From the NCBI RefSeq assembly GCF_016598535.1, contig NZ_CP066779.1, forward strand, positions 5,950,053-6,014,052: a stretch of DNA of 64,000 nt, written 5' to 3'. The notes under the pieces were generated by a model. It was not told the DNA's origin. It ran no database searches and saw only the letters and a program-made list of their open reading frames with translations. Source of the DNA: Rhodococcus sp. P-2 (lineage in GTDB: Bacteria > Actinomycetota > Actinomycetes > Mycobacteriales > Mycobacteriaceae). Of this stretch, positions 8,078-39,519 are shown piece after piece. The translations under genes and the position numbers were made by a program. Each line of letters begins with the position of its first letter. Position 1 is the stretch's first letter.

Positions 8078-8847
8078 GTCCGCGCGGTAAGGGTCCCGAT
8101 TTCAGCGAGTACACCGGGCCTCGGCGGCGGGCACCCGCGCCGGTCAAGCCTCGTCCAGCGTTCGGGAGGACGTTCTGGGGCAAGGCTTTTGTCCGCGTCG
8201 TCGAAGAGATCGGCGACAAACCTCGCGTCACGCGTGGGCGTACGTATGCGCGTTCGGGTCAGGTCTTGGCGCTCGACATCGAACCGGGAGTGGTGACGGC
8301 CGAGGTTCAGGGCAGCCAACTTCAGCCGTTCGTTTCCACGCTGTCGATCGACACCCTCGATCAATCGGATATCGACGACATCATCACCAAGATCCGCCGC
8401 GTGCCGGGAAGCCTTGCCGCACTGGTGTCCGGCACTGTCCCGGACATGCTTGCCGCCCAACTGATACCGGACGGCCCGTCGGCTTTTCGCTTCGACTGCA
8501 CCTGCCCCGATGTCGGTTGGCCGTGCAAACACGCTGCGGCCGTGGCGTTCTTGACCGCCGAGCGGATCGACACCGATCCGCTGAGGTTGCTGAGACTTCG
8601 CGGGGTCGACCTGGAGCAGTTGATCGGGGGAGTGGAAGACGAGTCGACCGTTGCGGTGGACGTCGAGAATTGGTTCGGAATCGCGGCTGCCCTGCCGGCG
8701 CTACCGAAGGTGCCTTTTCGTGCGGCGATCGACGATCTGGATATCCGGCGGTTGCGCGAGGCGGTTGCGGCACTGGGATTGGACATGGCTCAGCAGAACG
8801 TCGCCTTGGACGAAATACGGTCCATCTACCGACGGTTGGACGGTTGA
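8074..8847 (+). CDS. SWIM zinc-finger protein, partner of SNF2 helicase
   Basis: 257 residues, starting in the ATGA overlap with the helicase stop. The SWIM finger (CxC...CxH) is seen as DCTCPDVGWPCKHAAAV at about residues 140-156. The N-terminus (RRRAPAPVKPRPAFGRTFWGKAFV) is the usual start of these proteins in actinobacteria. SWIM domains bind DNA or protein, and SNF2-SWIM gene pairs recur in bacterial genomes. No enzymatic motif is visible. It may be a targeting subunit for the helicase. Confidence 0.88.
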   Translation: MSPRGKGPDFSEYTGPRRRAPAPVKPRPAFGRTFWGKAFVRVVEEIGDKPRVTRGRTYARSGQVLALDIEPGVVTAEVQGSQLQPFVSTLSIDTLDQSDIDDIITKIRRVPGSLAALVSGTVPDMLAAQLIPDGPSAFRFDCTCPDVGWPCKHAAAVAFLTAERIDTDPLRLLRLRGVDLEQLIGGVEDESTVAVDVENWFGIAAALPALPKVPFRAAIDDLDIRRLREAVAALGLDMAQQNVALDEIRSIYRRLDG

Positions 8848-8905
8848 AATCGGACAACTCCGGACTGGTGCTAGTTTCCTGTCGTGAATTCCAGTATCGT
8901 TAATT

Positions 8906-8915
8906 GGACCGGTCC
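8906..8915. promoter_or_regulatory. Palindrome GGACCGGTCC in the dasR upstream region
   Basis: A perfect 10-bp palindrome in the 149-bp gap before the GntR regulator. It is placed where an autoregulatory operator could be, but it does not fit the dre consensus well. The function is unassigned. Confidence 0.3.
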
Positions 8916-8996
8916 GGTCGGGACCTGCCTGCGATTTCATATCCTTATCGTCGGCGAATAGACGGCTATTCATTTCTCGGAGGGACAGTCGCTGTG

Positions 8997-9746
8997 ATGC
9001 CCGTTCATTTGCGCGACAGCGCAATACCCAAACACGAACAGTTGCGCACCATTCTCCTGCGCAAGTGCACCCAAGAACTCCAGCCTGGCGACTTGATGAC
9101 CAGTGAGCGAAACCTGATGCAGGACTACGGCGTCAGTCGGATCACCGTTCGCGAGGCCATCGGACAACTGGTAAATGACGGACACCTCGTTCGCGTGCGT
9201 GGCAAGGGCACCTTCGTTGCGCACCGTGCCGTCCAGTCCAAGCTGCACCTTGCATCCTTCACCGAGGAAATGCGCGCCCAGGGGCATCACCCCACGACAG
9301 TGGTCCTGGTCAGCGAGCAGGGGCCGGTCCCCGAAAGCACTGCTGCCGCACTGAATATGCGACCGGGTTCCGACGGTTACCACGTCAAGCGCTTGCGCCT
9401 CGCCGACGGCGAGCCCGTGAGTGTGGACGACGGCTGGTTCAATCCCGAACTGTTGCCGGGTCTACTCGACATGGACTTGACGGGTTCGATCTACCGAGCG
9501 ACCGCCGACAAGTACGACAAGCCGATCGATCGGGCCGAACAGACGGTCAGTGCAGACGGTGCGAGTACGGAGATCGCGACTCTCCTCGGTACTCGTAAAG
9601 GCGCCCCGGTTCTGTACTTCGATCGAGTGTCGTTCAGCGAGATCGCACCGGTCGAGCACACTCGTAGTTGGTACCGATCCGACCGCTACCAGTTGCAGAT
9701 GGAAGTCCAGGGCCAAGCGCGGCCCAAGACACGCGGCGACCAGTAG
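8997..9746 (+). CDS. dasR: GntR/HutC-family regulator, probable DasR (amino-sugar regulator)
   Basis: 249 residues from the ATG at 8997; a GTG at 8994 is adjacent. GGAGGG lies at 8979-8984. The long upstream frame from 8904 has no support. The winged helix is clear (SERNLMQDYGVSRITVREAIGQL, then VRVRGKGTFVA). A UTRA ligand domain follows from about residue 90. This is the HutC/DasR class, which senses glucosamine-6-P or GlcNAc-6-P in Streptomyces and represses GlcNAc uptake genes. Here it sits beside a complete GlcNAc PTS-nagA-nagB set with a dre-like site on the nagE promoter. The family call is firm; the DasR identity rests on context. Confidence 0.85.
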   Translation: MPVHLRDSAIPKHEQLRTILLRKCTQELQPGDLMTSERNLMQDYGVSRITVREAIGQLVNDGHLVRVRGKGTFVAHRAVQSKLHLASFTEEMRAQGHHPTTVVLVSEQGPVPESTAAALNMRPGSDGYHVKRLRLADGEPVSVDDGWFNPELLPGLLDMDLTGSIYRATADKYDKPIDRAEQTVSADGASTEIATLLGTRKGAPVLYFDRVSFSEIAPVEHTRSWYRSDRYQLQMEVQGQARPKTRGDQ

Positions 9747-9761
9747 CCATCGTTCGGAACG

Positions 9762-9797
9762 AAAGGGCGGGCACACCTTCCGGTGTGCCCGCCCTTT
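9762..9797. terminator. Bidirectional terminator between dasR and the EIIA gene
   Basis: A 16-bp stem, 9762-9777 against 9782-9797, with loop TTCC. A-rich and T-rich ends let it serve the convergent transcripts from dasR (+) and the EIIA/EIIB operon (-). Confidence 0.85.
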
Positions 9798-9800
9798 GTG

Positions 9801-10259
9801 TTACGCCGACCAGTCGAACAGAGTGTCGCCGGTGGCGACGTCTCCACCGACGGAAGGGGATTCGACGGTGTCCGGTTTGGAATCCATCACGACTACCGGG
9901 CAGATCGCCGAGTAACCGGTCGTGTCGATGTGCGCTGGATCGAAGCTGACGACGGGATCACCGGCATTGACGGTGTCACCCTCGGCGGCGATGAGGGTGA
10001 ATCCGTCGCCTTCGAGTTTGACCGTGTCGATGCCGATGTGGACCAGCACGCCCGTGGCCTTCTCGCCGAAGATCACAAATGCGTGAGGGTGAAGTTTCAG
10101 GATCTTCCCGCTGATCGGCGCCACGACCGTGAGCGGGCCCTGACCGCGAGCGGGTTCGATCGCGACGCCCGAGCCGACCATCTGCTGAGCGAACACCGGG
10201 TCCGGTACGTCGGCAAGTGCGACGACCCGGCCGGGCAGCGGGGCGAGGACGACCGTCAC
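9801..10259 (-). CDS. PTS glucose/GlcNAc-type EIIA component (Crr-like)
   Basis: 152 residues from a GTG at 10259 that overlaps the EIIB stop by four bases (GTGA). It has the EIIA-Glc fold signature: LHPHAFVIFGEKATGVLVHIGIDTVKL, with the phosphorylated histidine in VHIGIDT. Enzyme I and HPr, encoded across the divergent promoter, would phosphorylate this histidine. It would pass phosphate to the EIIB cysteine. In many bacteria EIIA is fused to EIIC or EIIB; here it is free, as in Streptomyces. Confidence 0.9.
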   Translation of the reverse strand: MTVVLAPLPGRVVALADVPDPVFAQQMVGSGVAIEPARGQGPLTVVAPISGKILKLHPHAFVIFGEKATGVLVHIGIDTVKLEGDGFTLIAAEGDTVNAGDPVVSFDPAHIDTTGYSAICPVVVMDSKPDTVESPSVGGDVATGDTLFDWSA

Positions 10260-10486
10260 AGGATGTCCTCGATGTCCTCGGCAAGGGTGTCGGCCTCGGG
10301 CCCGACGATGACCTGGACAACCGTTCCGGCCTTGAGTACGCCGTGTGCGCCGGCAGCCTTGAGAGCGGACTCGTTCACCTTCGCTCCGTCCTTGACCTCG
10401 GTACGCAGGCGGGTGATGCAAGCCTCGATCTCGACGATGTTCTCTGCGCCGCCGAGGCCCTTGATGATTGCTTCCGCTTTCGACAT
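10256..10486 (-). CDS. PTS EIIB component, GlcNAc/glucose type
   Basis: 76 residues from the ATG at 10486, with AGGAG six bases upstream. The frame runs further up but without a second good start. The active-site cysteine is in EIEACITRLRTEV, the conserved EIIB CxTRLR motif. It would receive phosphate from EIIA and give it to the sugar bound by the EIIC permease at 10814. First gene of a two-gene leftward operon with EIIA, divergent from the permease gene. Confidence 0.92.
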   Translation of the reverse strand: MSKAEAIIKGLGGAENIVEIEACITRLRTEVKDGAKVNESALKAAGAHGVLKAGTVVQVIVGPEADTLAEDIEDIL

Positions 10487-10593
10487 TTGCTGCTCCTGAT
10501 TGTCGGGTTGGTCGTGATCGTTGAACGGTCGTACAGGTGGGCTGACTAGTTGCTGGTCAAGGCTATCCCGGTTACGTATGTCACATTTGGGTG

Positions 10594-10621
10594 TTGACAA
10601 CTCGCCTCCACCAGGTAAAAC
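10594..10621 (+). promoter_or_regulatory. Predicted nagE promoter
   Basis: A consensus -35 TTGACA (10594-10599) and a -10-like TAAAAC (10616-10621) are 16 bp apart. Transcription would start near 10628, inside the dre-like site. The 327-bp divergent region between EIIB (10486) and EIIC (10814) should also hold the leftward promoter. I could not place that one confidently. Confidence 0.55.
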
Positions 10622-10625
10622 TACA

Positions 10626-10641
10626 ACTGGTTATGACCGGA
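10626..10641. promoter_or_regulatory. dre-like operator for DasR-type regulator
   Basis: ACTGGTTATGACCGGA is an imperfect 16-bp inverted repeat close to the Streptomyces dre consensus A(C/G)TGGTCTAGACCA(G/C)T. The left half is exact and the right half differs at one or two bases. It covers the predicted nagE transcription start, so binding would block the PTS-nagA-nagB operon. Confidence 0.6.
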
Positions 10642-10813
10642 CAGTACCCGTTGGAAGTCCGGCTCCACAACAGTTTCGACAAAACGGTTTTGCCCTCACT
10701 TGCGAGCAAGAACCGTGACCTGCATTTTCACGAAACCTGCACGTGTACGACACCCGAATTTCCAGAACCAGCGGCCGATCGCGACGCGGCCCGGCGAACG
10801 AAGAAGGTCCTTG

Positions 10814-12157
<1,344 letters not shown>

Positions 12158-12159
12158 AC

Positions 12160-12429
12160 ATGGCGATCGCAACCACGACAATCGGATCCCGCGTCGGACT
12201 CCACGCACGACCCGCAGCGCTCTTCGCGCGCGCCGCAGCCGATCTACCGGCCGACGTCACCATTGCGCTCGGCGACGGCGAACCCGTCGATGCCTCCAGC
12301 ATGTTGTCTGTCATGACTCTCGGTGCCGCATTCGGGGATTCGGTGACCTTGCGTGCCGACGGTGACGGCGCCGATGCTGCGCTCGATTCGCTCGCCGAGC
12401 TTCTCGCATCCGAACTGGACGAAGCCTGA
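12160..12429 (+). CDS. ptsH: HPr phosphocarrier protein of the PTS
   Basis: 89 residues, two bases after nagE. The phosphorylated histidine is in VGLHARPAALFARAA near residue 15. The segment around DASSMLSVMTLGA corresponds to the Ser46 region of other HPr proteins. It carries phosphate from Enzyme I to EIIA. The stop overlaps the ptsI start. Having general PTS genes inside a GlcNAc operon suggests this sugar is the main PTS substrate here. Confidence 0.95.
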   Translation: MAIATTTIGSRVGLHARPAALFARAAADLPADVTIALGDGEPVDASSMLSVMTLGAAFGDSVTLRADGDGADAALDSLAELLASELDEA

Positions 12430-27852: not shown

Positions 27853-28500
27853 TCACGGTTGTGTTGCGCCGGACTCACTGGCCGTCGCGACGACGGTGGC
27901 TGCCACTATTTGCTCCACGCTGATGCCTGCTGCCGGTAGGCAGTGGTAGAAAATTCGTTCACAGAGGTCGACCATCTCGCCTCGCTCGAGCGTCGGCTCG
28001 TCGATCCAGTTGACGACGATTTCCTCCATGAACGCCTGCCACCCGGCGATTGTCGCCTCCACGGTCGCGTTCGATTCGATGCCCAGATTAGTGAGCGCAG
28101 CGACGATCCACGTGGTGAAAGTGCGGCGCATCCCACGGTAGATCGTGCGCATCCGGACGTCGCCACTGCCGGCCATCCGCATCACGGCGAGGTAAATGGT
28201 GGGGTGCTCGATAACGGCGTCGACGAAAGTTTCGATACCTGAACGCAGCTGGGACGTGATGGGGAGCTCGGGGTCAGGTCGCATTCGATCTTCGAGATCG
28301 GCCGAGGCAGCCTCGAGGATGGCGTTCTGGAAGCCCTTTTTGTTCTTGAAGTAATGGAACAGCAGTGGCGATGAGACGCCGGCCTCGGCGGCAACTCGGT
28401 CCATCGACAGTTGGTCGAAAGGCTCGGTCCGCAACATGCGTACTGCCACCTCGAGGATTTGCCTCTGACGGTCTTCGGGGGAGCGTGGGACTGCAGCCAT
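27853..28500 (-). CDS. TetR-family transcriptional regulator
   Basis: 215 residues from the ATG at 28500. HTH: LSMDRVAAEAGVSSPLLFHYFKNKKGFQNAIL near residues 31-62. The C-terminal part is a ligand domain of TetR type. It is divergent from the amidohydrolase operon at 28598 with a 97-bp gap, so it probably represses that operon and itself. It also sits upstream of the tiny peptide genes on the same strand, but these have their own promoters. Confidence 0.88.
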   Translation of the reverse strand: MAAVPRSPEDRQRQILEVAVRMLRTEPFDQLSMDRVAAEAGVSSPLLFHYFKNKKGFQNAILEAASADLEDRMRPDPELPITSQLRSGIETFVDAVIEHPTIYLAVMRMAGSGDVRMRTIYRGMRRTFTTWIVAALTNLGIESNATVEATIAGWQAFMEEIVVNWIDEPTLERGEMVDLCERIFYHCLPAAGISVEQIVAATVVATASESGATQP

Positions 28501-28597: not shown

Positions 28598-30388
28598 GTG
28601 TCTGCTTTCGACATCGTGGTCAACGACGGGTTGTGGTTCGACGGGACGGGGGCTCCAGGTCTGCGTCGTAATCTCGGAATTCGAGACGGCGTGGTCGCGG
28701 AGGTGTCCACGACAGGCCTCGAGATCGGGCCGGACACCGAGGTGATCGATGCGGCCGGCAAGTGGGTGCTCCCGGGTTTTGTCGACGTCCACACGCACTA
28801 CGACGCCGAGGCCTTGGTCAGTCCAGGGCTTCCGGAATCGGTTCGCCACGGCGTCACGACGGTCGTGCTCGGTAATTGCTCGTTGTCGACGGTGTATTCG
28901 ACCCCGCGCGAAATTGCGGACCTGTTCAGCCGGGTCGAAGCAGTGCCCCACGACGCGGTGCTGCGCATCCTCGAAGCGAACAAGACCTGGACCGGTCCCG
29001 CGGCGTACACCGCTGCACTCGAAGCCCTTCCCCTCGGACCGAACGTCGCGGCCTTCATCGGCCATTCCGACATTCGCACGCACGTACTCGGATTGGGGCG
29101 CGGCACCGACAAGAAGGTCAAGCCGACCCGCTCGGAACTCGGCCGGATGGGCTCGATGCTCGAGGACGCCATCGATGCGGGGATGTTGGGCCTGTCGTCG
29201 ATGACCAACGCCCTCGACAAGATCGACGGCGACGAATACCGTTCTCGCTCTTTGCCGTCGACGTATGCACGGTGGAAGGAGTTCCGATTCCTCAACCGCA
29301 TCCTTCGTGATCGCGGCAAGATCTTGCAGAGCGCTCCGACCATCAACCTGCATCCGAACGTCGCGGCGTTCTTCGCTGAAAGCTCCGCCATCGGACGCAA
29401 GAAGCCGCTCAAGACGTCGCTGCTCTCCGGTGCGGATTCGAAGGCCTACCCGGTGATCGTGTACTTCATGCTTGCTGCGGCCCCGCTGCTCAACCGCTTC
29501 GCCAAGACCGATTTCAAGTGGCAGCACCTTCCGGTTCCGTTCACCGTCTATGCAGACGGAATCGACCTCGTCGTATTCGAGGAGTTCGGTGCCGGCGCCG
29601 CCGCGTTGCACCTCAAGGACCAGGTGGAGCGCAACGAACTGCTCCAGGACGAGTCGTACCGCCGCGCATTCCGCAAGGACTACGACAACAAGTTCTCACC
29701 TCGCATCTGGCACCGCAATTTCTACGACGCCGTGATCGTCGGTTGCCCGGACGAGACGTTGATCGGCAAGAACTTCGGTCAGGTCGGCGACGTCCGGGGA
29801 GTGCACCCCGTGGACGCATACCTCGATCTGGTGGTGAAGTACGGACGAGAACTTCGCTGGCGCACCACTATTGCCAATCATCGTCCCAAGTTTGCCAAGA
29901 AACTCGCCGCGAGTTCCGGCGTGCAGATGGGCTTCGGCGATGCGGGTGCGCATCTGCGCAACATGGCGTTCTACAACTATCCGGTGCGACTCCTCAAGCG
30001 TGTCAAGGACGCCCAGAGTGACCGCAAACCGTTCCTCACCGTCGAACGGGCAATTCATCGCCTGACCGGCGAACTGGCGGATTGGTACGGCATCGATGCC
30101 GGGCATCTACGCCAGGGTGACCGCGCGGACTTCGTTGTCATCGATCCAGCCGGGCTCGACGAGTCGGTGGACGGCCTGTTCGAGGCAAAGGTCCCCGAGT
30201 ACGGTGGCATCAGCCGAATGGTCAACCGCAGCGACGACGCAGCCGTCGCGACGGTGATCAACGGCCGACTCGTCTACCGGGACGGCGAATTCGCCCCGGG
30301 ATTCGGAATCGAAAAGACAGGCCAGTTCCTGCGCGCTGGTGAAAAGGCTCCGATCACAGGGGTCACGAAGGCTAGCGTGGCGCTATGA
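28598..30388 (+). CDS. Amidohydrolase of the N-acyl-D-amino-acid deacylase family
   Basis: 596 residues from a GTG with GAGGAG upstream. D-aminoacylase-type features: DGTGAPGLRRNLGIRDG at the start, VLPGFVDVHTHYDAEA (HxH metal pair), VLGNCSLS (cysteine at the metal-ligand position of D-aminoacylases), GHSDIRTHVLG and the late GFGDAGAHLRN aspartate. Relatives of this length in Rhodococcus and Mycobacterium are annotated as D-amino acid deacylase or amidohydrolase 3 proteins with no proven substrate. The stop overlaps the following hydrolase start by four bases. Confidence 0.85.
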   Translation: MSAFDIVVNDGLWFDGTGAPGLRRNLGIRDGVVAEVSTTGLEIGPDTEVIDAAGKWVLPGFVDVHTHYDAEALVSPGLPESVRHGVTTVVLGNCSLSTVYSTPREIADLFSRVEAVPHDAVLRILEANKTWTGPAAYTAALEALPLGPNVAAFIGHSDIRTHVLGLGRGTDKKVKPTRSELGRMGSMLEDAIDAGMLGLSSMTNALDKIDGDEYRSRSLPSTYARWKEFRFLNRILRDRGKILQSAPTINLHPNVAAFFAESSAIGRKKPLKTSLLSGADSKAYPVIVYFMLAAAPLLNRFAKTDFKWQHLPVPFTVYADGIDLVVFEEFGAGAAALHLKDQVERNELLQDESYRRAFRKDYDNKFSPRIWHRNFYDAVIVGCPDETLIGKNFGQVGDVRGVHPVDAYLDLVVKYGRELRWRTTIANHRPKFAKKLAASSGVQMGFGDAGAHLRNMAFYNYPVRLLKRVKDAQSDRKPFLTVERAIHRLTGELADWYGIDAGHLRQGDRADFVVIDPAGLDESVDGLFEAKVPEYGGISRMVNRSDDAAVATVINGRLVYRDGEFAPGFGIEKTGQFLRAGEKAPITGVTKASVAL

Positions 30389-31230
30389 CTACACCGGCGG
30401 ATCGCCTCACCTCGTACTCCCGGTCCGGGCTGACCTTCGACGTACGCGACGAAGGGCCGGCAGACGGTCCGGTTGTTGTCCTCCTGCACGGTTTTCCGCA
30501 GGATTCGAGCTCGTGGGATCAGCTCGCACCGCTGCTGCACACCCGCGGCTTCCGCACGGTGGCGCCGGATCAGCGAGGGTACTCACCCGGCGCCAGGCCG
30601 AAAGCGCGCTGGGCGTACCGCGGGTCCGAACTCGCCGCTGACACTGTCGCACTGATCGACGCGCTCGCGGTGGGCAAGGTGCACCTGGTCGGCCACGACT
30701 GGGGTGCCGCAGTCGCATGGCAGGTCGCTGCCGAGCGGCCCGATTTGCTCAACACCGTTACCGCGGTGTCGGTTCCGCATCCACTGGCGTTCGTCAAGGC
30801 GATGGTGACCAGCACGCAGGGACTGAAATCGTGGTACATGGGGGCGTTCCAATTGCCCTTCGTTCCCGAGAAGGTTCTGTCCTCCACGTCGGCGGGTGAG
30901 AAGTTCCTGATCTCGAGCGGGCAGACGCCGGAGAACGCGCGGCGCGATCTGAATGCCATGCTGGCTCCCGGCCGCCTGCGGGGTGGTCTGAACTGGTATC
31001 GCGCGATGTGGATGACCAAGCCGAACCCCGCAACTGCCCGGGTCACCGTGCCGACCATGCACGTCTGGAGCGACGGCGATGCTGCCATCGGGCCCAAGGG
31101 ATCTGCGCTCACCCCCGCGTTTGTCGACGGCCCGTACCGGTTCGAGGTTCTCAGCGGCGTGAGCCACTGGATTCCGGACGAGGCGCCGGACGAGTTGGAC
31201 CGACTGCTGGGCGAGCATCTCGGCAGCTGA
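30385..31230 (+). CDS. Alpha/beta hydrolase, epoxide hydrolase-like
   Basis: 281 residues, starting in an ATGA overlap with the amidohydrolase. Oxyanion motif LLHGFPQDSSSWD near residue 33. The nucleophile elbow VGHDWGAAVAW carries aspartate, as in epoxide hydrolases and haloalkane dehalogenases, not serine. The catalytic histidine lies near the end in GVSHWIPDEAPDEL. It is probably soluble and acts on an epoxide or similar small molecule. Co-transcription with a deacylase suggests one degradation route. Confidence 0.85.
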   Translation: MTTPADRLTSYSRSGLTFDVRDEGPADGPVVVLLHGFPQDSSSWDQLAPLLHTRGFRTVAPDQRGYSPGARPKARWAYRGSELAADTVALIDALAVGKVHLVGHDWGAAVAWQVAAERPDLLNTVTAVSVPHPLAFVKAMVTSTQGLKSWYMGAFQLPFVPEKVLSSTSAGEKFLISSGQTPENARRDLNAMLAPGRLRGGLNWYRAMWMTKPNPATARVTVPTMHVWSDGDAAIGPKGSALTPAFVDGPYRFEVLSGVSHWIPDEAPDELDRLLGEHLGS

Positions 31231-31303: not shown

Positions 31304-32443
31304 TCAACGAGTTCCGAATCGCTCTTCCACCTGCTCCTTCGTCAGACCGAACTCCTCGAGCGTGTACTTGTGCGAAGGTTTGCGAGCACCCGAGCGGCTT
31401 TCCTCGTGCATGGCCTCCATCGACTGCTGGGCGGTAGATGTCAAAGGGATGTCGAAGTGCGCGTAGATGTTCTCGACGGTTCCCAGCGGATCGGTGACGA
31501 AGTCCTGATAGTCGACGTCGATGAACTGAGCCGGATTGTGGTGTGCGCGTGCACTGTCGAACTGCTCGAGTCCCCTGGCCCACAATTCGAGCTGACTTTC
31601 GCCGATCACCTTGTCGGTGAACGTGTTCGACCAACCCTCTGTCGCCTGGGCGGCCAGGCTGCATACCGACGGAATGATTGTCGTGGGGGAGCGGTGAGTC
31701 TGGATGACGAGAGCGTCGGGGTACGCCTCCATCAATTCGTCGAGCGCAAACAGGTGGCTCGGGTTCTTGAGGACCCACCGTCGATCCTGATCGGGCAGAC
31801 CGATCAGCTGCAGGTTCTTCTTGTGTCGTGCATAGGCGTTCGACCACTCCTGGTCCTTCAGCCATGCGGAGTACGTGGGTAGATTTGCCAGGCACTCGTA
31901 CGACACGGACTTGAACGTCTGACGCAAGAGTTGCCAACATTCTTCGACTTCACTGGCGGACATGTAGTGCACGCCCATGAATTCGGGATGCTCGACGTGG
32001 TGTTGGCCGAACGTCTCCTCGATCTTGGCGAAGACCGGGTTCGATTCCCAGGTATCGCGAGGTGGACGCGGCTGGGGGAACTCGGTCAGCCACATCTCGA
32101 GACCCTGGTGAGCCGGGTCGACCGTGAGGAGGCGGTGTAGCGCTGTGGTGCCGGTGCGTGGCAATCCGGTGACGAAGATCGGCCGCTCGATCTTGACGTC
32201 GGCGTGTTCCGGATGTTCCTTCCATGCGGATTCGCTGAGCAGACGTGCCACCAGGGCGCCGCGTAGGAATACCCGAGAGATCTTGCTGCCGAAGGGTGTC
32301 AGATCCTCGTCGCGGTCGTACGACTCGAGCAGGACCGACAGAGCTTCGGTGTAATCGTCGACGCCGAAGTCCGTCAGGCCGGTCATCCGCGTCGCCGAGG
32401 CATGGAGATCCTCGACGGTGCCGACGTGAGTGCGTTCAGTCAT
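31304..32443 (-). CDS. PAPS-dependent sulfotransferase family protein (Rv3529c-like)
   Basis: 379 residues from the ATG at 32443, with AGGAG six bases upstream. The 5'-phosphosulfate loop is PIFVTGLPRTGTTALHRLL at residues 88-106, and the 3'-phosphate region is VIQTHRSPTTIIPSVCSL. It would transfer sulfate from PAPS to an acceptor. It is the last gene of a leftward operon behind an SDR and a DUF1214 protein. The same three genes occur as Rv3531c-Rv3530c-Rv3529c in the mycobacterial cholesterol region, from memory. The acceptor is unknown; a steroid or lipid is likely. The nearby cysDNC-cysQ operon could supply PAPS. Confidence 0.85.
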   Translation of the reverse strand: MTERTHVGTVEDLHASATRMTGLTDFGVDDYTEALSVLLESYDRDEDLTPFGSKISRVFLRGALVARLLSESAWKEHPEHADVKIERPIFVTGLPRTGTTALHRLLTVDPAHQGLEMWLTEFPQPRPPRDTWESNPVFAKIEETFGQHHVEHPEFMGVHYMSASEVEECWQLLRQTFKSVSYECLANLPTYSAWLKDQEWSNAYARHKKNLQLIGLPDQDRRWVLKNPSHLFALDELMEAYPDALVIQTHRSPTTIIPSVCSLAAQATEGWSNTFTDKVIGESQLELWARGLEQFDSARAHHNPAQFIDVDYQDFVTDPLGTVENIYAHFDIPLTSTAQQSMEAMHEESRSGARKPSHKYTLEEFGLTKEQVEERFGTR

Positions 32444-32450
32444 GGTGCTC

Positions 32451-33233
32451 CTAGTGATGGAATTCGCCGCAGTTGACGTCGATACATTGGCCGGTGATCG
32501 CGCTGGCCATCGGGGACGCCAGGAAGATCGCCGCATCGGATACTTCATCCGTCGTCGGCAGGCGCTTGAGGTCGGTGTTCGACGCGGTGTGCTCGTAGAT
32601 CTGCTCGACGGTCATGCCGAACTTCTCCGCCTGGTGCGCGAAGTAACCCTTGAGGGTGTCGCCCCAGATATAGCCGGGTGCAATCGAATTGACACGAATT
32701 CCCTGCGGGCCGAGTTCGGTGGCCAGGGACTGCGACATGGCGAGCAGGGCCGACTTCGCCATCTTGTAGCTGCCGTAACGCTCTTGCGAATGCCGCAACA
32801 CCATCGAATTGATGTTCACCACGGAGCCGTCCGACTCGGCAAGTGCCGGCGTGAACAGCTGAGTCAGGCGCAGCGCACCCAGTACGGTCAGTTCGATGCT
32901 GTCGCGGATGTGCTGGTAATCGGTGCGAGCCAATGGCTTCATCGACGGAATCGAGAAGGCATTGTTGATCAGAGTGTCGACTTTGCCGTAGGCGGCAATG
33001 GACTCGGCCACCAGATTCTCGGCGGAAGCCTGGTCGGTGATGTCGGTGGCAACGGTGACGGCGCGCCCACCGGCATCGACTATTTCCTTCGCGACGTCGT
33101 CGAGCCGCGATTGCGTGCGCGCTGCGAGAACAAGACTCGCGCCGGCTGACGCACAGCGAAGCGCCAGAGCGCGGCCGAGAGCGGGGCCGACCCCGGAGAT
33201 GACTACTACACGGTCTTCGAGCAAGGCGGTCAT
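32451..33233 (-). CDS. Short-chain dehydrogenase/reductase (Rv3530c-like)
   Basis: 260 residues from the ATG at 33233, two bases after the upstream gene's stop. Rossmann motif VVISGVGPALGRALAL; NNA at 90-92; catalytic Ser143 and Tyr156-x3-Lys160 (SYKMAKSALL); GIRVNSIAPGYIWGDTLKGY after it. The oxidoreductase is complete and NAD(P)-dependent. Its place between DUF1214 and sulfotransferase genes suggests it creates or removes a hydroxyl on the same substrate. Confidence 0.9.
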   Translation of the reverse strand: MTALLEDRVVVISGVGPALGRALALRCASAGASLVLAARTQSRLDDVAKEIVDAGGRAVTVATDITDQASAENLVAESIAAYGKVDTLINNAFSIPSMKPLARTDYQHIRDSIELTVLGALRLTQLFTPALAESDGSVVNINSMVLRHSQERYGSYKMAKSALLAMSQSLATELGPQGIRVNSIAPGYIWGDTLKGYFAHQAEKFGMTVEQIYEHTASNTDLKRLPTTDEVSDAAIFLASPMASAITGQCIDVNCGEFHH

Positions 33234-33235
33234 GT

Positions 33236-34402
33236 TTACCCCAGCATTCGGTTGTCGATGGCGGCCTGGCGCTGGGCAATTCGCGCTGCCCAGTCCTCGG
33301 CGCTGATGGCGTTGGTGTCGAAATGCGGCAGGTGCTTCGCAATGTCTTCCACTGGAACGATCTCGACGGTGGGGCCGTCCTCGGGCGTCAGCTCGCGCGA
33401 GACCCGCTGCCACCGGAACTGAAGAATGCCGCGCGGGTGCCCGACGGTTTCGATCCAGTTGGTGACACCGGGGTTCTTCTCGCTGACCACCATCCGGACC
33501 ATCCCGTCCGGATCCACCTGTGCCTGGCCGTTGTTGAGGGAGGTCTGATGATTGACGTAGTCGAGTGAGATGTACCAGAGGCTACCGAGTTGGAAGCCGA
33601 GATACGGTGCGTCCGACGCCGGAACCGTGATGATCATCGCCTGCTCGTCGGTTAGTTCGTAATGTCCCACCGACGAGTACTGTGTCGCCAGTCCGCCCGG
33701 CGTCAGACGTGGTTCGGTCATGGTGTTGACCGTGAGCTTGAGGTAGAACCACTCCGGAAACTGCAGCCACGTCTTGACCCGCGTGACCAGTGCCTTTCCG
33801 GCCCGTGCGTACCGCTTCTCGGTCTCTTCGGCGGTCAGCGGTGGCGGTGCGATTCCGATCGAATCGGTGCGCTCGATTCGGATCACGCCGCGCTGCTGAC
33901 TCCAGTCGCTGTAGACCTCGCGAACGACCAACTGCGAGGAACCGGGCGCCAGGGTGTAGTAGTTGGCTCGGCCGTCGGCAGGGCCGGGGCCGAACCAAGC
34001 GACGAAGTTGCCGTCGTCGTCTATCTCGAGTTCGCGGTCGTCGAAGGCGATCTCGCTTCCGGGGACATTCGAGTTGGTGTAGTTCCCGCTCAACACCTGG
34101 AAGCTGAGATCGGCTGTGGTGCCGCGCTTTCCGGTGACCTTGTATTCTTTGTCGTCGTTGATACGGGCGCCGAAGTAGAGGGTGTCCGGGTTGTCGAGAC
34201 CCATCTTGGTGAACGGCCCAGTGCCCTGGATGAAACTCGGATGAGTCTTTTCGCTGGCCCAGGCGGCATGCGTCGTCGCGATGATTCCGCCGGCCAGATA
34301 TTGGTATCCCTCCAGTAGATCCTGTTCGGATCTGATGTGCGGCGCAGTCTCGATCAATTTCTCGGCTTCGGCGATCGCCTCGGCAAACGGGTCCGTCAGC
34401 AC
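33236..34402 (-). CDS. DUF1214-domain protein (Rv3531c-like)
   Basis: 388 residues from a GTG at 34402, with GAGGAG five bases upstream. It starts MLTDPFAEAIAEAEKLI. The central and C-terminal parts match the DUF1214 fold (TLYFGARINDDKEYKVTGKRG, FQLGSLWYISLDYVNHQTSL, MVRMVVSEKNPGVTNWIETV). No catalytic motif is known. First gene of the leftward operon, expressed from a promoter that carries both a KstR-type box and the GGTACA inverted repeat. Its function is unknown; co-occurrence with the SDR and sulfotransferase suggests a steroid or lipid substrate. Confidence 0.82.
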   Translation of the reverse strand: MLTDPFAEAIAEAEKLIETAPHIRSEQDLLEGYQYLAGGIIATTHAAWASEKTHPSFIQGTGPFTKMGLDNPDTLYFGARINDDKEYKVTGKRGTTADLSFQVLSGNYTNSNVPGSEIAFDDRELEIDDDGNFVAWFGPGPADGRANYYTLAPGSSQLVVREVYSDWSQQRGVIRIERTDSIGIAPPPLTAEETEKRYARAGKALVTRVKTWLQFPEWFYLKLTVNTMTEPRLTPGGLATQYSSVGHYELTDEQAMIITVPASDAPYLGFQLGSLWYISLDYVNHQTSLNNGQAQVDPDGMVRMVVSEKNPGVTNWIETVGHPRGILQFRWQRVSRELTPEDGPTVEIVPVEDIAKHLPHFDTNAISAEDWAARIAQRQAAIDNRMLG

Positions 34403-34448
34403 GCTGGCTCCTCACAGTTCCGACTATGTCGCCGGTCCAGAGCGTCGT

Positions 34449-34464
34449 GGTACAAATATGTACC
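34449..34464. promoter_or_regulatory. GGTACA-N4-TGTACC operator, copy A
   Basis: A perfect 6-bp inverted repeat with spacer AATA, 46 bases upstream of the DUF1214 start. An almost identical site lies before cysD (35529-35546). It is the likely target of the IclR regulator encoded between the two copies. Confidence 0.65.
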
Positions 34465-34493
34465 TATTTGGTAGATGTTGGGTATTCCGACAA

Positions 34494-34507
34494 TAGAACG
34501 CGTTCTA
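34494..34507. promoter_or_regulatory. KstR-type box TAGAACGCGTTCTA, copy A
   Basis: A perfect 14-bp palindrome that fits the published KstR consensus TnnAACnnGTTnnA. It is 29 bp from GGTACA copy A and 11 bp upstream of the iclR start codon. It could therefore control both the leftward operon and iclR. Confidence 0.7.
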
Positions 34508-34518
34508 GGGAGTGGTCA

Positions 34519-35454
34519 ATGGGTGGACCGGAGAAGGCGCCTGAAGATGGTCGCCCGAGGGGGAGGCAATCGCCTCCCACCGAGCGGGTGGTTCAGGTAC
34601 TCGATTACCTCGTCGGCCGCCCTGATCAGCGGTTCGGGCTGTCGGAACTGGCCCGCGCGCTCGAGATCAGCAAGCCCACCTGCCTGGGAATCCTCACGGC
34701 ACTGGCTGATCGTGGATACCTGACTCGGGACGAGGTGTCGAAGACCTACGGGCTCGGTCCGGCCTTGATTGCGGCCGGACGTGCAGCTCAGCGCGGATTT
34801 GCCGTCGGCCCTATTGCCCGCACCCATCTGGCGAAGGTGAGTGCGGAGTTCGGGACGACGTGCACGGCGTCCGGCGTGATCGGTGACCAGATCAGTGTTC
34901 TCGAGGTGACCGGACCGGTCGGAGCACGTCGCGCTGCCAAGGTCGGGCAGGTGTATCCGTTCGCTCCGCCGGTCGGACTGATGTACGTCCTCTGGGGTTC
35001 GGATCACGACATGGACAGTTGGCTGAGCAAGGAGCCGAGCCTGCCGGTGCGCTTGGATCGCGAGCGTCTGTGGAACGTGGTCCGCGAGTGCCGCGCCGCG
35101 GGGTACCTGGTCGAGAGTCTGGACCCCGTCGGGCAGCGACTTCACACGCTGATGGCGGGTGTTGCGACGCATGATCTCCCGCCCGAGGTGCGTGAACTGC
35201 TCGGTGAGATGGTGTCGAGCCTGGGCGAGAGGGTGTACCTCGGGCGCGACATCAGTTCCGACGACGAGCATCCCGTCAGTCTCATCGCGGCCCCGACCTA
35301 CGACGCCGAGGGGCATCAGGCGCTTGTGTTGACGCTGTATGTGGGTGGGGCGATTACGGGCGCCGAGATCGAGCGAAGGGCCGCGGCGCTGGTTGCGGCA
35401 GCGGATGCGGTGACGGCGGAAGTTGGTGGCCGGAGTCCGGTTCGCGGTCTGTGA
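34519..35454 (+). CDS. IclR-family transcriptional regulator
   Basis: 311 residues from the ATG at 34519 (GGGAG upstream); the frame opens earlier but without a good start. The N-terminal winged helix includes RFGLSELARALEISKPTCLGILTALADRGYLTRD. The effector domain follows, with the expected VLEVTGPVGARRAAKVGQ...PLFAPPVG-like stretch. Its gene lies between two divergent operons whose promoters share an inverted repeat. It is therefore the prime candidate to control both the sulfotransferase operon and the cysD operon. The effector is unknown. Confidence 0.88.
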   Translation: MGGPEKAPEDGRPRGRQSPPTERVVQVLDYLVGRPDQRFGLSELARALEISKPTCLGILTALADRGYLTRDEVSKTYGLGPALIAAGRAAQRGFAVGPIARTHLAKVSAEFGTTCTASGVIGDQISVLEVTGPVGARRAAKVGQVYPFAPPVGLMYVLWGSDHDMDSWLSKEPSLPVRLDRERLWNVVRECRAAGYLVESLDPVGQRLHTLMAGVATHDLPPEVRELLGEMVSSLGERVYLGRDISSDDEHPVSLIAAPTYDAEGHQALVLTLYVGGAITGAEIERRAAALVAAADAVTAEVGGRSPVRGL

Positions 35455-35483
35455 CGTCTGATTGCCGGACATTGACCTTTGGG

Positions 35484-35497
35484 TAGAACGAGTTCTA
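35484..35497. promoter_or_regulatory. KstR-type box TAGAACGAGTTCTA, copy B
   Basis: It fits TnnAACnnGTTnnA and differs from copy A at one central base. It sits 29 bp after the iclR stop and 101 bp before cysD. The following bases TT are also shared with copy A on the matching strand. Confidence 0.7.
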
Positions 35498-35528
35498 TTC
35501 TGTGGTTGCGTTCAAATTAGAACCAGTC

Positions 35529-35546
35529 CGGTACATAAATGTACCG
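35529..35546. promoter_or_regulatory. GGTACA-N4-TGTACC operator, copy B
   Basis: CGGTACA-TAAA-TGTACCG, a perfect 7-bp inverted repeat, 51 bases before the cysD start and 32 bp after the KstR-type box. Relative to its operon it has the same order and nearly the same spacing as copy A. A further small inverted repeat (GCGGAA-N6-TTCCGC) follows at 35549-35566. Confidence 0.65.
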
Positions 35547-35597
35547 ATGCGGAAATGGTGTTCCGCACGGAGTACGTGATGCTCAGGAGCGAAAGAC

Positions 35598-36524
35598 ATG
35601 GCAACACTCCAGACCCCGCCCGCCTACGAGTTGTCGCATCTGCGAGCACTCGAAGCGGAGGCGGTCCATATATTCCGCGAAGTCGCAGCGACTTTCGAAA
35701 AGCCGGTCCTCCTGTTCTCCGGAGGTAAGGATTCCGTCGTGATGCTGCACGTAGCGGCCAAGGCATTCTGGCCTGCCCCATTGCCGTTCGCCGTGATGCA
35801 CGTCGACACCGGTCACAATTTCGACGAGGTGATCGAATTTCGCGACCGCACGGTCGATCGCTTCAACCTGCGTCTTGTCGTCTCCAGCGTGCAGGACGAC
35901 ATCGACGCCGGTCGCGTCATCGAGGACACCGGAGTCGGTTCCAGTCGCAATCGCCTGCAGACACACGCGTTGCTGCGCGGAATTCGCGACAACAAGTTCG
36001 ACGCCGTGTTCGGTGGTGCTCGCCGAGACGAGGAGAAGGCACGCGCCAAGGAGCGGGTGTTCAGCTTCCGGGACGAGTTCGGGCAGTGGGATCCCAAGGT
36101 GCAGCGACCCGAACTGTGGAATCTGTACAACGGCAAACACCGTAAGGGCGAACATATTCGGATCTTCCCGCTCTCCAACTGGACAGAGCTCGACATCTGG
36201 CAGTACATCGAGAGCGAACAGATCGACCTTCCCGGCATCTACTACGCCCATCGTCGCGACGTGGTTCCGCGCGACGGAATGTTGTTGGCACGCACCCGCT
36301 TCCTCGAACTTCGCGACGGCGAAGAGTCCTACGAGGCGTTGGTGCGCTTCCGTACGGTCGGCGACGCAACGTGTACCGGATGCGTCGAATCGTCGGCCGA
36401 AACGCCGGCTGCTGTCGTGGAAGAAGTTGCAGCGAGCCGTATTACGGAACGTGGCGCAACCAGAGCTGATGACCGAATTTCCGAAGCCGGCATGGAAGAT
36501 CGTAAGAAAGAGGGGTACTTCTGA
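35598..36524 (+). CDS. cysD: Sulfate adenylyltransferase subunit 2
   Basis: 308 residues, with AGGAG upstream of the ATG. PP-loop ATPase motif LLFSGGKDSVVMLHVA near residue 40; FAVMHVDTGHNF; and GGARRDEEKARAKERVFSFRD, typical of CysD. With CysN it makes APS from sulfate and ATP. First gene of a four-gene operon with 1-4 base overlaps. No cysH or sulfite reductase gene is close, so this copy need not serve cysteine synthesis. Confidence 0.95.
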   Translation: MATLQTPPAYELSHLRALEAEAVHIFREVAATFEKPVLLFSGGKDSVVMLHVAAKAFWPAPLPFAVMHVDTGHNFDEVIEFRDRTVDRFNLRLVVSSVQDDIDAGRVIEDTGVGSSRNRLQTHALLRGIRDNKFDAVFGGARRDEEKARAKERVFSFRDEFGQWDPKVQRPELWNLYNGKHRKGEHIRIFPLSNWTELDIWQYIESEQIDLPGIYYAHRRDVVPRDGMLLARTRFLELRDGEESYEALVRFRTVGDATCTGCVESSAETPAAVVEEVAASRITERGATRADDRISEAGMEDRKKEGYF

Positions 36525-38368
36525 TGCCGCAACTGCTGAGAGTCGCCACGGCGGGCAGCGTCGACGACGGAAAATCGACACTCATCGGCCGGTTGCTCTA
36601 CGACTCCAAGTCGATCTTCGAGGACCAACTCGAGGCCGTGGAGCGGAGCAGTCGAGAGCGAGGAGACGAGTACGCCAACCTCGCGCTACTGACTGACGGT
36701 TTGCGCGCTGAGCGTGAACAGGGCATCACGATCGACGTGGCCCACCGGTATTTCGCGACCCCTCACCGGAAGTTCATCATCGCCGACACTCCCGGGCACG
36801 AGCAGTACACCCGCAACATGGTGACCGGCGCGTCGACGGCCGATCTTGCCCTGATCCTGGTGGACGCACGGAAGGGCGTGCTCGAACAGACGCGGCGGCA
36901 CGCATTCCTCTCCACGCTCCTGGGGATTCCGCACCTCGTGCTGTGCGTGAACAAGATGGATCTGGTGGGCTGGTCTCAGGAACGGTTCGAGGAGATCAAG
37001 GAAGAGTTTCGACAGTTCGCGATCAAGTTGGACGTCCACGACCTGACGTTCATTCCGGTGTCGGCGCTGTTGGGAGACAACATCGTTGCCCGGACCGAGA
37101 ACATGTCCTGGTACGACGGGCCTTCTCTGCTGCACCATCTCGAGCAGGTGCACATCGCTTCGGATCGCAACTTGATCGACGCTCGGTTTCCGGTGCAGTA
37201 CGTGATCCGTCCGCAGAAGCAAACAGATGCCGACCTCCACGATTTCCGTGGATACGCCGGAACGGTTGCCAGTGGTGTCTTCAAGCCTGGTGACGAAATC
37301 GTGGCGTTACCTTCAGGATTCACCTCGACGGTGAAGGCAGTCCACGGGCCGGGCGGTGACGTGATCGACGAGGCATTTGCGCCGTCGGCCGTATGTATCG
37401 AGCTGACCGACGATCTCGACGTCAGCCGCGGGGACCAATTGTGTCGGCTCAACAACCGGCCGCAGGTCGGGCAGGAAATCGATGCGATGGTCTGTTGGTT
37501 GACTGAACAGACCACCCTGTCGGAGAACAACCGCTACTCGTTGCTGCACACCACGCGCTCCACGAAAGCGCAGATCGTCAAGCTCGACTATCGCCTGGAC
37601 GTCAATTCTCTGCACCGCGACGAGAAGGCAGAATCTCTGTCCCTCAACGAGATCGGACGCATCTCGATCAAGACGCAGCAACCGTTGATGTTCGATCCTT
37701 ACCGCCGCAACCGGGTGACGGGCAGCTTCATTCTCGTGGACGAGACCACGGGCAATACCGTTGCTGCTGGAATGATCAACGGTCCGACGCTCAAGGAGTC
37801 GCGCGTCGTCTGGCACAGTTCGGAGGTTTCTCGCGAGGAGCGTGCGACCACCGGTGGGACTGTGTGGCTCACCGGACTCTCGGCCTCGGGTAAGTCGACG
37901 ATCGCGGTGGAACTCGAGCGCCGGTTGGTGGCCGCGGGTATCCCGGCGTACCGACTCGACGGCGACAACCTCCGGCACGGCCTGAATGCGGATCTCGGGT
38001 TCAGTGCCGAGGACCGAGCGGAAAACGTTCGCAGAGTCGGCGCCGTGGCGCAGTTGTTCGCTGATTCAGGTGCAGTGGCAGTGGCTTGCCTGATCAGTCC
38101 GTACCGCGAGGACCGCGATCGAGTTCGGGCGGCCCACGAGGCTGCTGGACTGAAGTTCGTCGAGGTCTATGTCGACACCCCGATCGAGCAATGTGAAGCC
38201 CGAGACCCCAAGGGTATGTACGCCAAGGCCAGGGCCGGGGAAATCAAGGGTTTCACCGGGGTCGACGATCCTTACGAGGCTCCAGCCAGCCCCGAGCTGG
38301 TGATCAGACCCGAAGACGGAACGCCTACCGAACTTGCGCTGCGAATTATGGAAGTGTTGGACCGGTGA
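36524..38368 (+). CDS. cysNC: Bifunctional sulfate adenylyltransferase subunit 1 / adenylylsulfate kinase
   Basis: 614 residues; the ATG shares one base with the cysD stop. The GTPase half has GSVDDGKSTLIGRLLYD (11-27), DTPGHEQYTRNM near 88 and NKMDL near 143. The APS-kinase half starts near residue 445 with WLTGLSASGKSTIAVELERR and DGDNLRHGLNADLGFS. The protein assists CysD and then phosphorylates APS to PAPS, the sulfotransferase donor. CysNC fusions are common in mycobacteria and relatives. Confidence 0.95.
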   Translation: MPQLLRVATAGSVDDGKSTLIGRLLYDSKSIFEDQLEAVERSSRERGDEYANLALLTDGLRAEREQGITIDVAHRYFATPHRKFIIADTPGHEQYTRNMVTGASTADLALILVDARKGVLEQTRRHAFLSTLLGIPHLVLCVNKMDLVGWSQERFEEIKEEFRQFAIKLDVHDLTFIPVSALLGDNIVARTENMSWYDGPSLLHHLEQVHIASDRNLIDARFPVQYVIRPQKQTDADLHDFRGYAGTVASGVFKPGDEIVALPSGFTSTVKAVHGPGGDVIDEAFAPSAVCIELTDDLDVSRGDQLCRLNNRPQVGQEIDAMVCWLTEQTTLSENNRYSLLHTTRSTKAQIVKLDYRLDVNSLHRDEKAESLSLNEIGRISIKTQQPLMFDPYRRNRVTGSFILVDETTGNTVAAGMINGPTLKESRVVWHSSEVSREERATTGGTVWLTGLSASGKSTIAVELERRLVAAGIPAYRLDGDNLRHGLNADLGFSAEDRAENVRRVGAVAQLFADSGAVAVACLISPYREDRDRVRAAHEAAGLKFVEVYVDTPIEQCEARDPKGMYAKARAGEIKGFTGVDDPYEAPASPELVIRPEDGTPTELALRIMEVLDR

Positions 38369-39519
38369 GCGAATCCACACACAGCAGAATCGCCGACGAG
38401 GCACTCGCGGCGGAATTGGCGCAGGCCGCTGGTGCGATCCTCCTGGGGATCCGAGCCGAGGGCCTGGGTGTCGACGACGGTCGTGAGCTGGGCCGACGAG
38501 GCGACAAGGCAGCCGATTCCTACATCCTCGACCGGTTGGCGGCCGAGCGGCCGGAAGATTCCGTGCTCTCGGAAGAGTCGGCCGATGATCGCAATCGTCT
38601 GGAGGCATCCCGGGTCTGGATCATCGATCCGCTGGACGGCTCCAAGGAATACGGCTTGCCGGATCATGCGGATTGGGCAGTGCACGTGGCGCTTTGGGAA
38701 CGCGGTCGTGGAATTACCGCAGCCGCGGTGTCGCAGCCGGCGCTCGGAGCGGTGTACTCCAGTGGCGACGAGGCAGTCTCGGTTGCCGCCAACTCGCCGC
38801 TCCGAGTGGTCGTCAGTGGCTCGCGACCGCCCGCATTCACCGAAGCCGTGGCGGCCGAACTCGGCGCAGACGTCGTGCACATGGGATCGGCCGGCGCCAA
38901 GGCGATGGCGGTGGTGCGCGGAGAGGTCGACGCGTACCTGCACGCCGGTGGGCAGTGGGAATGGGATTCGGCTGCACCCGTCGGCGTCGCACAGGCGGCC
39001 GGGCTGCATTGCAGCCGCATCGACGGTTCGCCGCTGCTCTACAACGAATCACATCCCTACCTACCGGATCTCGTGATCTGCCGACCGGAGTTGTCAGAGT
39101 CGATCCTGGGCGCAATTGCCAAGCACTCCACGGAGTCTGCGGTCAGCGGACGCGTCGCCATGGCGCGTGAATACGTGAACGCATTGCTCACTCACGACGC
39201 AACGAAGGTCCGATTCGCCGCCGACGCCTGGCGGGTCGAGAACGGTCAGCGAACGGGTGATACCGGCGCTTTCATCAGCAACGAACTCGAACAGGGGCAG
39301 CAATATCGCGGAATCGTGGCGATACGTGAACTCGCGCTGCGTGAGTGGGGCGAGAGCGTCGTGGCGCGGTACCTGCTCGACCTCGGAACACCTGGCCAAG
39401 CCCCGGCCAGTACGGTTTTCGTCACCGAGTACTTCGGGATACCGGCAGGCGAGATCGAGAGCATCCTGGCAATCATCGAACCCCACGAAAACGATTCGAA
39501 AGAGGCTGGCACACAATGA
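38365..39519 (+). CDS. cysQ: CysQ-type 3'(2'),5'-bisphosphate nucleotidase with extra C-terminal domain
   Basis: 384 residues from a GTG in a GTGA overlap. Residues 1-250 are an inositol-monophosphatase-fold enzyme: LSEESADD near 70, the metal motif IDPLDGSKEYG at about 86-96, and EWDSAAPVGVAQAAG near 200. It would hydrolyse PAP, the inhibitory by-product of sulfotransferases, or PAPS. CysQ is normally 250-270 residues. Here about 125 residues follow (VAMAREYVNALLTHDATKVR ... VARYLLDLG), resembling a SnoaL/NTF2-like fold. I do not recognise that domain surely. The fusion and the operon context suggest a tailored PAP-recycling enzyme. Confidence 0.85.
   Translation: MSESTHSRIADEALAAELAQAAGAILLGIRAEGLGVDDGRELGRRGDKAADSYILDRLAAERPEDSVLSEESADDRNRLEASRVWIIDPLDGSKEYGLPDHADWAVHVALWERGRGITAAAVSQPALGAVYSSGDEAVSVAANSPLRVVVSGSRPPAFTEAVAAELGADVVHMGSAGAKAMAVVRGEVDAYLHAGGQWEWDSAAPVGVAQAAGLHCSRIDGSPLLYNESHPYLPDLVICRPELSESILGAIAKHSTESAVSGRVAMAREYVNALLTHDATKVRFAADAWRVENGQRTGDTGAFISNELEQGQQYRGIVAIRELALREWGESVVARYLLDLGTPGQAPASTVFVTEYFGIPAGEIESILAIIEPHENDSKEAGTQ

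Follow-up and report, generated by a model that had tools for sequence, protein, structure and literature searches.

A candidate sulfonation module behind predicted KstR and IclR-type operators in Rhodococcus sp. P-2

Gene order and promoter architecture

The DNA analysed here, termed the window, is a 64,000 bp stretch of Rhodococcus sp. P-2 that spans 5.950–6.014 Mb of a single contig of 6.34 Mb (6,340,135 bp). It contains a candidate sulfonation module, in which a gene for an IclR-type regulator is flanked by two outward-directed operons. The order is sulfotransferase–SDR–DUF1214, leftward; iclR, rightward; and cysD–cysNC–cysQ, rightward, where SDR is a short-chain dehydrogenase/reductase. 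Both operons begin behind two palindromes, termed here the K box and the G box, which are predicted operators of the regulator KstR and of the IclR-type protein, respectively.

The first gene of the left operon (33236–34402, minus strand; start codon GTG 34402) encodes a DUF1214-like protein, whose match to Pfam DUF1214 (E 0.004, 18.1 bits) is below the gathering score of 25. Matches to this gene at E ≤ 1e-40 are found in 299 of 401 family genomes. The second gene (32451–33239, minus strand) has its start at GTG 33239 or ATG 33233 and encodes the SDR, with 424 bits against NCBIfam PRK07890 (cutoff 258). The third, the sulfotransferase gene (31304–32443, minus strand), belongs to Sulfotransfer_3 (Pfam E 2.4e-59; 201.7 bits, gathering score 27). 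The sulfotransferase matches PDB 2zq5 (E 5.8e-163), which we take to be Stf1/Rv3529c of M. tuberculosis. Its PAPS-site-like motif TGLPRxGTT is invariant in 20 of 20 aligned orthologues and is presumably the site for PAPS (3′-phosphoadenosine 5′-phosphosulfate). The iclR gene (34519–35454, plus strand) is assigned by Pfam HTH_IclR (E 8.4e-8; 32.3 bits, gathering score 22). Its product is 99% identical to a protein of R. qingshengii IEGM 1359 and 97% identical to one of R. erythropolis, which places the genome within or close to that group. The helix-turn-helix (HTH) region is conserved in an alignment of 24 sequences.

In the right operon, cysD (35598–36524, plus strand; start codon ATG 35598) encodes subunit 2 of ATP sulfurylase (TIGR02039, 453 bits, cutoff 396.6). 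It is followed by cysNC (36524–38368, plus strand), which encodes a fusion of the ATP sulfurylase GTPase subunit and adenosine 5′-phosphosulfate kinase for PAPS synthesis (NF004035, 968 bits, cutoff 715). The third gene (38365–39519, plus strand) encodes a CysQ-like phosphatase for PAP (3′-phosphoadenosine 5′-phosphate) and PAPS, with a predicted C-terminal NTF2-like domain (39133–39516). It matches the broader Inositol_P family (E 1.3e-29) but attains only 94.6 bits against the curated CysQ model, below the cutoff of 228.8. The name CysQ is therefore based on the Inositol_P family and on context.

Both outward promoters carry a K box TAGAAC-N2-GTTCTA, followed after 29 bp (left) or 32 bp (right) by a G box GGTACA-N4-TGTACC. 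At the left promoter, the K box TAGAACGCGTTCTA (34494–34507, without strand) lies inside the spacer between a predicted −35 hexamer TTGACC (34514–34519, minus strand) and a predicted −10 hexamer TATTGT (34490–34495, minus strand). At the right promoter, the K box TAGAACGAGTTCTA (35484–35497, without strand) is situated in the same way between TTGACC (35472–35477, plus strand) and TATTCT (35496–35501, plus strand). The −35/−10 spacer is 18 bp at both promoters. The left −35 shares one base with the iclR start codon, and the right −35 starts 17 bp past the iclR stop codon. Both K boxes are exact matches to the KstR regulon palindrome TnnAACnnGTTnnA.

Each G box is within the predicted leader, 46 bp (left, GTG 34402) or 52 bp (right, ATG 35598) from the start codon. 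Exactly five bases 5′ of each G box is a third half-site, which gives ACC-N5-GGTACA-N4-TGTACC. The predicted IclR-type operators are accordingly TACC-N5-GGTACATATTTGTACC on the left (34449–34473, minus strand; G box 34449–34464 plus the upstream half-site) and AACC-N5-GGTACATAAATGTACC on the right (35521–35545, plus strand; G box 35530–35545 plus the upstream half-site). An initial annotation of this DNA had described matching double boxes at both outward promoters. The coordinates of the K and G boxes are confirmed, and the core differences, one base in the first box and two in the second, are as it stated. Its spacings of 29, 32 and 46 bp also hold, but the right-hand distance from G box to start codon, given as 51 bp, is 52 bp. 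The −35 and −10 hexamers around the K boxes, the ACC-N5 half-site and the conservation across genera were absent from that annotation.

The motifs are infrequent. In the window, TNNAACNNGTTNNA has two matches, against 0.33 expected by chance, and GGTACAN4TGTACC at up to two mismatches has three, two of them exact, against 0.55 expected. That annotation had also proposed a genome-wide search for both motifs. In the whole 6.34-Mb genome, the exact G box is found only at the two sites of the module, with six further places at one mismatch (three for the reversed control). Likewise, ACC-N5-GGTNCA-N4-TGNACC is exact only at these two sites; with one mismatch allowed there are 8 per strand versus 4–5 for the control. 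The motif TNNAACNNGTTNNA occurs at 69 places versus 38 for the reversed control, and TAGAACNNGTTCTA is found nine times exactly and, with one mismatch allowed, 22 times versus 16 for the control. Chance palindromes are rejected by the window expectations and the genome-wide controls, and two exact sites in 6.34 Mb argue against the G box being a widespread motif of this genome.

Conservation of the boxes and their association with kstR and iclR

The gene of the KstR orthologue is 126 kb from the module, and its HTH region is near-identical to that of the KstR in the PDB. The kstR promoter itself carries TAGAACACGTTCTA, with a divergent acyl-CoA dehydrogenase gene, and the K boxes of the module are the same as this box except for two central bases. 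This is also one of the seven exact TAGAACNNGTTCTA sites outside the module. By Pfam and NCBIfam classes, the neighbours of the other six are another acyl-CoA dehydrogenase, an HsaA-like monooxygenase (scoring under its curated cutoff), a ferredoxin reductase-type protein, a SnoaL-like protein, a wax ester synthase and, as a divergent pair, genes of the F420_Rv3520c and ChsH2-like classes; the core of the last site is the same as that of the published Rv3520c/Rv3521 site. Thus, the K box is in the company expected of a KstR operator. Comparison supports the prediction that it is one, as well as the initial view that the first box fits the KstR consensus. A stand-alone SnoaL-like (NTF2-type) gene elsewhere in the genome (L024, C1:2668853-2671866, at ∼1109–1483, minus strand) begins ∼18 bp behind an exact TAGAACAGGTTCTA, which is KstR-like.

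The pair G-N20-45-K is present in 25 of the 28 genomes of the genus, that of P-2 included. A wider set of 80 loci from 12 genus groups was selected by an iclR orthologue beside a DUF1214 orthologue, and not by the boxes; a G box was called at no more than two mismatches of twelve, within 230 bp. On the DUF1214 side, the K box, as TnnAACnnGTTnnA, is found at 75 of the 80 loci and the G box at 76. On the other side, 73 loci have cysD, and 59 of these show the K box and 61 the G box. The sequence TTGAC is located 5–6 nt before the K box in 73/75 (DUF1214 side) and 59/59 (cysD side) of the promoters that carry it, and TANNNT is present at the −10 position in the same proportions. The gap between K and G boxes is mostly 28–33 bp. 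ACC at positions −8 to −6 of the G box is found in every promoter having a G box (76/76 and 61/61). Among 4,000 random 233-bp windows of the same loci, true sites included, the best G match had at least four mismatches in 3,741.

A set of named relatives, the best 80 of 354 loci, shares many genomes with the first 80 and is not independent of it. It contains 79 loci with DUF1214, and between DUF1214 and iclR all 79 have the G box and 77 the K box, 57 of them as exact TAGAACN2GTTCTA; the loci without a K box on this side are L287 and L313. The genera include Rhodococcus, Prescottella, Antrihabitans, Skermania, Speluncibacter, Aldersonia, Nocardia, Amycolatopsis, Kutzneria, Actinophytocola, Actinomadura, Microtetraspora and Sphaerisporangium. 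The form with both boxes on both sides is recurrent in Rhodococcus-type genera, and one-sided forms extend to Nocardia, Amycolatopsis, Kutzneria and Microtetraspora. Three Nocardia-group loci display a right-hand K-like sequence that lacks the first T.

Twenty further DUF1214 loci with a weak or no listed match to iclR were examined, with iclR defined by tblastn at over 150 bits. Four carry iclR after all, each with a G box, and 16 do not. A G box on the DUF1214 side is thus present at 80 of 84 loci with iclR versus 1 of 16 without it. The exact TAGAACN2GTTCTA is kept at 8 of these 16, which are spread over eight genus groups, and at two of them (L267, L268) decayed G boxes lie beside exact K boxes. 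The lone iclR-less locus with a G match at up to two mismatches is L270, where the match is on the cysD side. The iclR carriers that lack a G box on the DUF1214 side are one Nocardia-group locus (L243) and three loci of genus group g29 (L248–L250). The counts indicate that the G box, unlike the K box, tracks with the iclR gene. This comparison supports the prediction that the G box is the operator of the IclR-type protein encoded between the operons, a role that the initial annotation had considered probable for the second box. L270 and L271 (group g6) are cases of natural iclR loss, in which the two operons diverge directly from each other and the sequence between them contains KstR-like boxes. 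At L248–L250, the DUF1214 gene starts ∼10–11 nt past the K box, and its transcript would be leaderless or nearly so.

Co-occurrence of KstR and the DUF1214 gene was assessed in 101 family genomes (E ≤ 1e-55 and E ≤ 1e-40, respectively); three KstR-negative genomes were assigned by elimination, and absence of DUF1214 signifies absence from the match list. Of 78 genomes with a KstR orthologue, 70 carry the DUF1214 gene, versus none of the 23 without one. The two absences coincide inside genera: in G013 of the genus of P-2, in G032, G097 and G112 of group g6, and in G045 of group g19. A KstR match (E ≤ 1e-20) is present in 24 genomes of a separate set of 25, and in 20 of these 24 the best identity is 59–100%.

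PAPS genes, paralogous clusters and known systems

Besides one cysN, the genome carries three cysNC genes. The cysNC copy at 2.88 Mb neighbours a sulfatase gene and has none of the boxes of the module. The third copy, at 1.20 Mb, belongs to a same-strand run cysQ–cysD–cysNC–SDR–sulfotransferase–DUF1214 beside a TetR gene (∼1.196–1.203 Mb; locus L402, C1:1190500-1206500, at 5390–12378, minus strand), with 27–54% identity to the module. Its DUF1214 paralogue passes the Pfam gathering score with 28.3 bits. This run unites the same six families as the module but differs in having all genes on one strand, and no KstR, KstR2 or G box was found in the 16 kb of L402. The association of the same families under other control argues for one biochemical unit. 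The comparison thus supports the enzymes forming one sulfonation set for the synthesis and use of PAPS and the removal of PAP, as had been proposed initially. Genes for a family-5 solute-binding protein and for a luciferase-like monooxygenase lie downstream of the L402 run.

The CysQ-like protein has a C-terminal extension of ∼120 residues. It occurs in Rhodococcus-type genera, in 12 of 14 aligned members; the Speluncibacter and Skermania members of the alignment (L212, L217) lack it. It is modelled as an NTF2-like fold with a mean predicted local distance difference test score (pLDDT) of 80. Ketosteroid isomerase and limonene epoxide hydrolase are among the top structural matches from Foldseek (template modelling score ∼0.5–0.6, E 0.003–0.04); no match falls below E 0.001, and the best match of a sequence search in the PDB has E 0.49. 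These similarities are suggestive only of an NTF2/limonene-epoxide-hydrolase-like domain. The initial annotation had correctly read DUF1214–SDR–sulfotransferase and cysD–cysNC–cysQ, but placed a separate epoxide hydrolase gene after cysQ. A separate gene is rejected, as the 384-amino-acid frame is open throughout and the extension is shared by 12 of the 14 aligned members; the "epoxide hydrolase" is probably the NTF2-like domain of the CysQ protein.

The KstR motif was found by Kendall 2007, and the tables of that paper list a probe for Rv3531c/Rv3532 with the site marked +ve (PMC1995591). The left operon resembles the KstR operon Rv3531c–Rv3530c–Rv3529c of mycobacteria, where a table gives consecutive genes as hypothetical, possible oxidoreductase and conserved hypothetical (PMC6429209), with the positive KstR site before Rv3531c (PMC1995591). 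KstR control of the left operon is therefore not new. The initial claim that dual control of such a module was undescribed does not stand for KstR and the sulfotransferase operon (PMC1995591), but holds, in the literature searched, for the link to PAPS synthesis and IclR. PPE61 (Rv3532) occupies the far side of this promoter in M. tuberculosis, in contrast to iclR in the window. Neither an IclR operator nor sulfonation is discussed for the Rv3531c operon in the relevant sections and tables of the two papers (PMC1995591, PMC6429209). Within the open-licence literature of PubMed Central, the top of longer search results held no paper that connects PAPS synthesis or IclR with this system, and no description of the module was found among papers on sulfotransferases with KstR, steroids or Rhodococcus. 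The cholesterol-induced genes of R. jostii RHA1 were reportedly listed by Van der Geize in 2007, and those lists may contain module genes.

With respect to PAPS synthesis, the right operon specifies the same enzymes as CysD–CysNC and CysQ of M. tuberculosis, for PAPS synthesis and as PAP/PAPS phosphatase, which are described there as part of general sulfur metabolism responding to sulfur and stress signals (PMC3141025). In contrast to that system, the cysNC of the window is one of three copies and lies behind KstR and IclR boxes. The CysN2C–CysD2–Stf0 cluster reported for the close relative R. qingshengii IGTS8 also has PAPS synthesis beside a sulfotransferase (PMC8557817). Its sulfatase–CysN2C–CysD2 order, as given in that report, fits the 2.88-Mb copy, and the cluster is probably a different locus from the module; identity of the module with this cluster is therefore rejected.

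Proposed mechanism and alternative explanations

The two divergent operons together with iclR probably constitute a sulfonation module that is controlled by KstR and the IclR-type protein and has its own PAPS supply. In the proposed scheme, CysD–CysNC would make PAPS, the sulfotransferase would transfer the sulfuryl group to a substrate that the SDR and the DUF1214 protein prepare or handle, and PAP would be removed by CysQ. The substrate may be a sterol metabolite or a related lipid. KstR, bound to the palindrome in the −35/−10 spacer, would block RNA polymerase until freed by an early sterol metabolite, either an acid or a CoA thioester; the ligand has been given as 3-oxo-4-cholestenoic acid (PMC4881515) and as the CoA thioester of an early cholesterol metabolite (PMC8228715). 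The IclR-type protein on the three-half-site leader operator, ∼20–35 nt past the predicted starts near 34483 (minus strand) and 35508 (plus strand), would be a second, local repressor acting as a roadblock until released by its own ligand. With a KstR block and an IclR roadblock, both operons would be on together only when sterol degradation and the IclR signal coincide.

Several observations weigh against this scheme. Eight of the 78 KstR-positive genomes have no DUF1214 match. In the 25-genome set, four relatives, which we take to belong to the order Streptosporangiales, have KstR-like proteins of only 38–40% identity (with 75–78% of the HTH region kept), and no KstR match at E ≤ 1e-20 was found in the metagenome-assembled genome L345. 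Of the 401 family genomes, 86 contain an exact G box, versus 14 for the reversed control, and several of the matches listed are not beside iclR. Three of the four g29 loci lack the G box on the DUF1214 side and show a weak G-like sequence, with at least three mismatches, on the iclR side of K. Conservation is lower on the cysD side, with G at 40/73 and K at 37/73 of the named loci; right-hand boxes were not found in the Antrihabitans, Skermania and Nocardia group loci examined, and cysD was not found in the fetched stretch at 7 of the 80 loci. In addition, the loci are related by descent, and the counts are not independent events.

Alternative explanations concern each box in turn. The G box is a palindrome within the predicted leader, and in several lineages its symmetry is preserved by paired changes (GGTCCA/TGGACC); it might thus form a 5′-leader RNA hairpin (GGUACA-N4-UGUACC) or be the site of another regulator. 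This is very unlikely, considering the association with iclR (80/84 versus 1/16), the broken symmetry of the group g27 and Nocardia-group G boxes (GGTACATATTTGGACC, GGTACATATATGGAAC), and the invariably kept ACC-N5 half-site, for which a hairpin has no use. Other TetR regulators recognise similar palindromes, and the K box might be read by one of these in a module unrelated to steroids. A candidate in the same genome is a KstR paralogue of 46% identity that keeps 75% of the HTH region and might read the same site. Such a reading appears improbable, as the K boxes match the kstR box outside two central bases, the DUF1214 gene is absent in 23 of 23 KstR-less genomes, and the Rv3531c site is listed as positive for the M. 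tuberculosis KstR (PMC1995591). The paralogue gene is located at G000:C1:1999967-2000512 (L387).

The other alternatives retain KstR and IclR but change the substrate or the logic. The module may serve a sulfated cell-envelope lipid, with KstR only tying it to lipid supply, and Stf0, a mycobacterial sulfotransferase, is said to start the synthesis of sulfolipid-1. Kendall 2007 argues that cholesterol use alone does not account for the size of the KstR regulon, in which genes of anabolism may be included (PMC1995591). An envelope-lipid function is a possible, if less favoured, explanation, since the coinciding absences of DUF1214 and KstR inside genera suggest dependence on the sterol pathway. 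Proteins of the IclR family act as activators, repressors or both, and the IclR-type protein could activate the two operons. The logic would then be KstR off and IclR on, instead of two repressors. This is doubtful, as both promoters have the operator past the predicted start, a position that suits a repressor.

If the proposal of a KstR- and IclR-controlled sulfonation module is correct, Rhodococcus and many of its soil-dwelling relatives would be expected to sulfonate a compound during growth on steroids. The chances appear about even that sterol-degrading actinobacteria carry an undescribed, conserved sulfonation branch of sterol metabolism that comprises a sulfotransferase with its own PAPS supply and, in Rhodococcus-type genera, a fusion of CysQ with an NTF2/ketosteroid-isomerase-like domain, switched by KstR and by a three-half-site IclR protein that possibly senses a sulfonated or late steroid product. 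We know of no sulfonated intermediate in actinobacterial sterol breakdown, a process studied with a view to steroid drug manufacture and pathogen nutrition. The module would give a concrete, testable function to KstR genes that are tabled only as hypothetical or oxidoreductase (PMC6429209), and its promoters may offer a ready two-input promoter for Rhodococcus. The natural iclR losses point to the operator of an IclR family without description in the literature searched.

To the left of the module, a separate alpha/beta hydrolase gene (30385–31230) is convergent with the sulfotransferase gene, and a TetR-family regulator gene is present at 27853–28500 on the minus strand.

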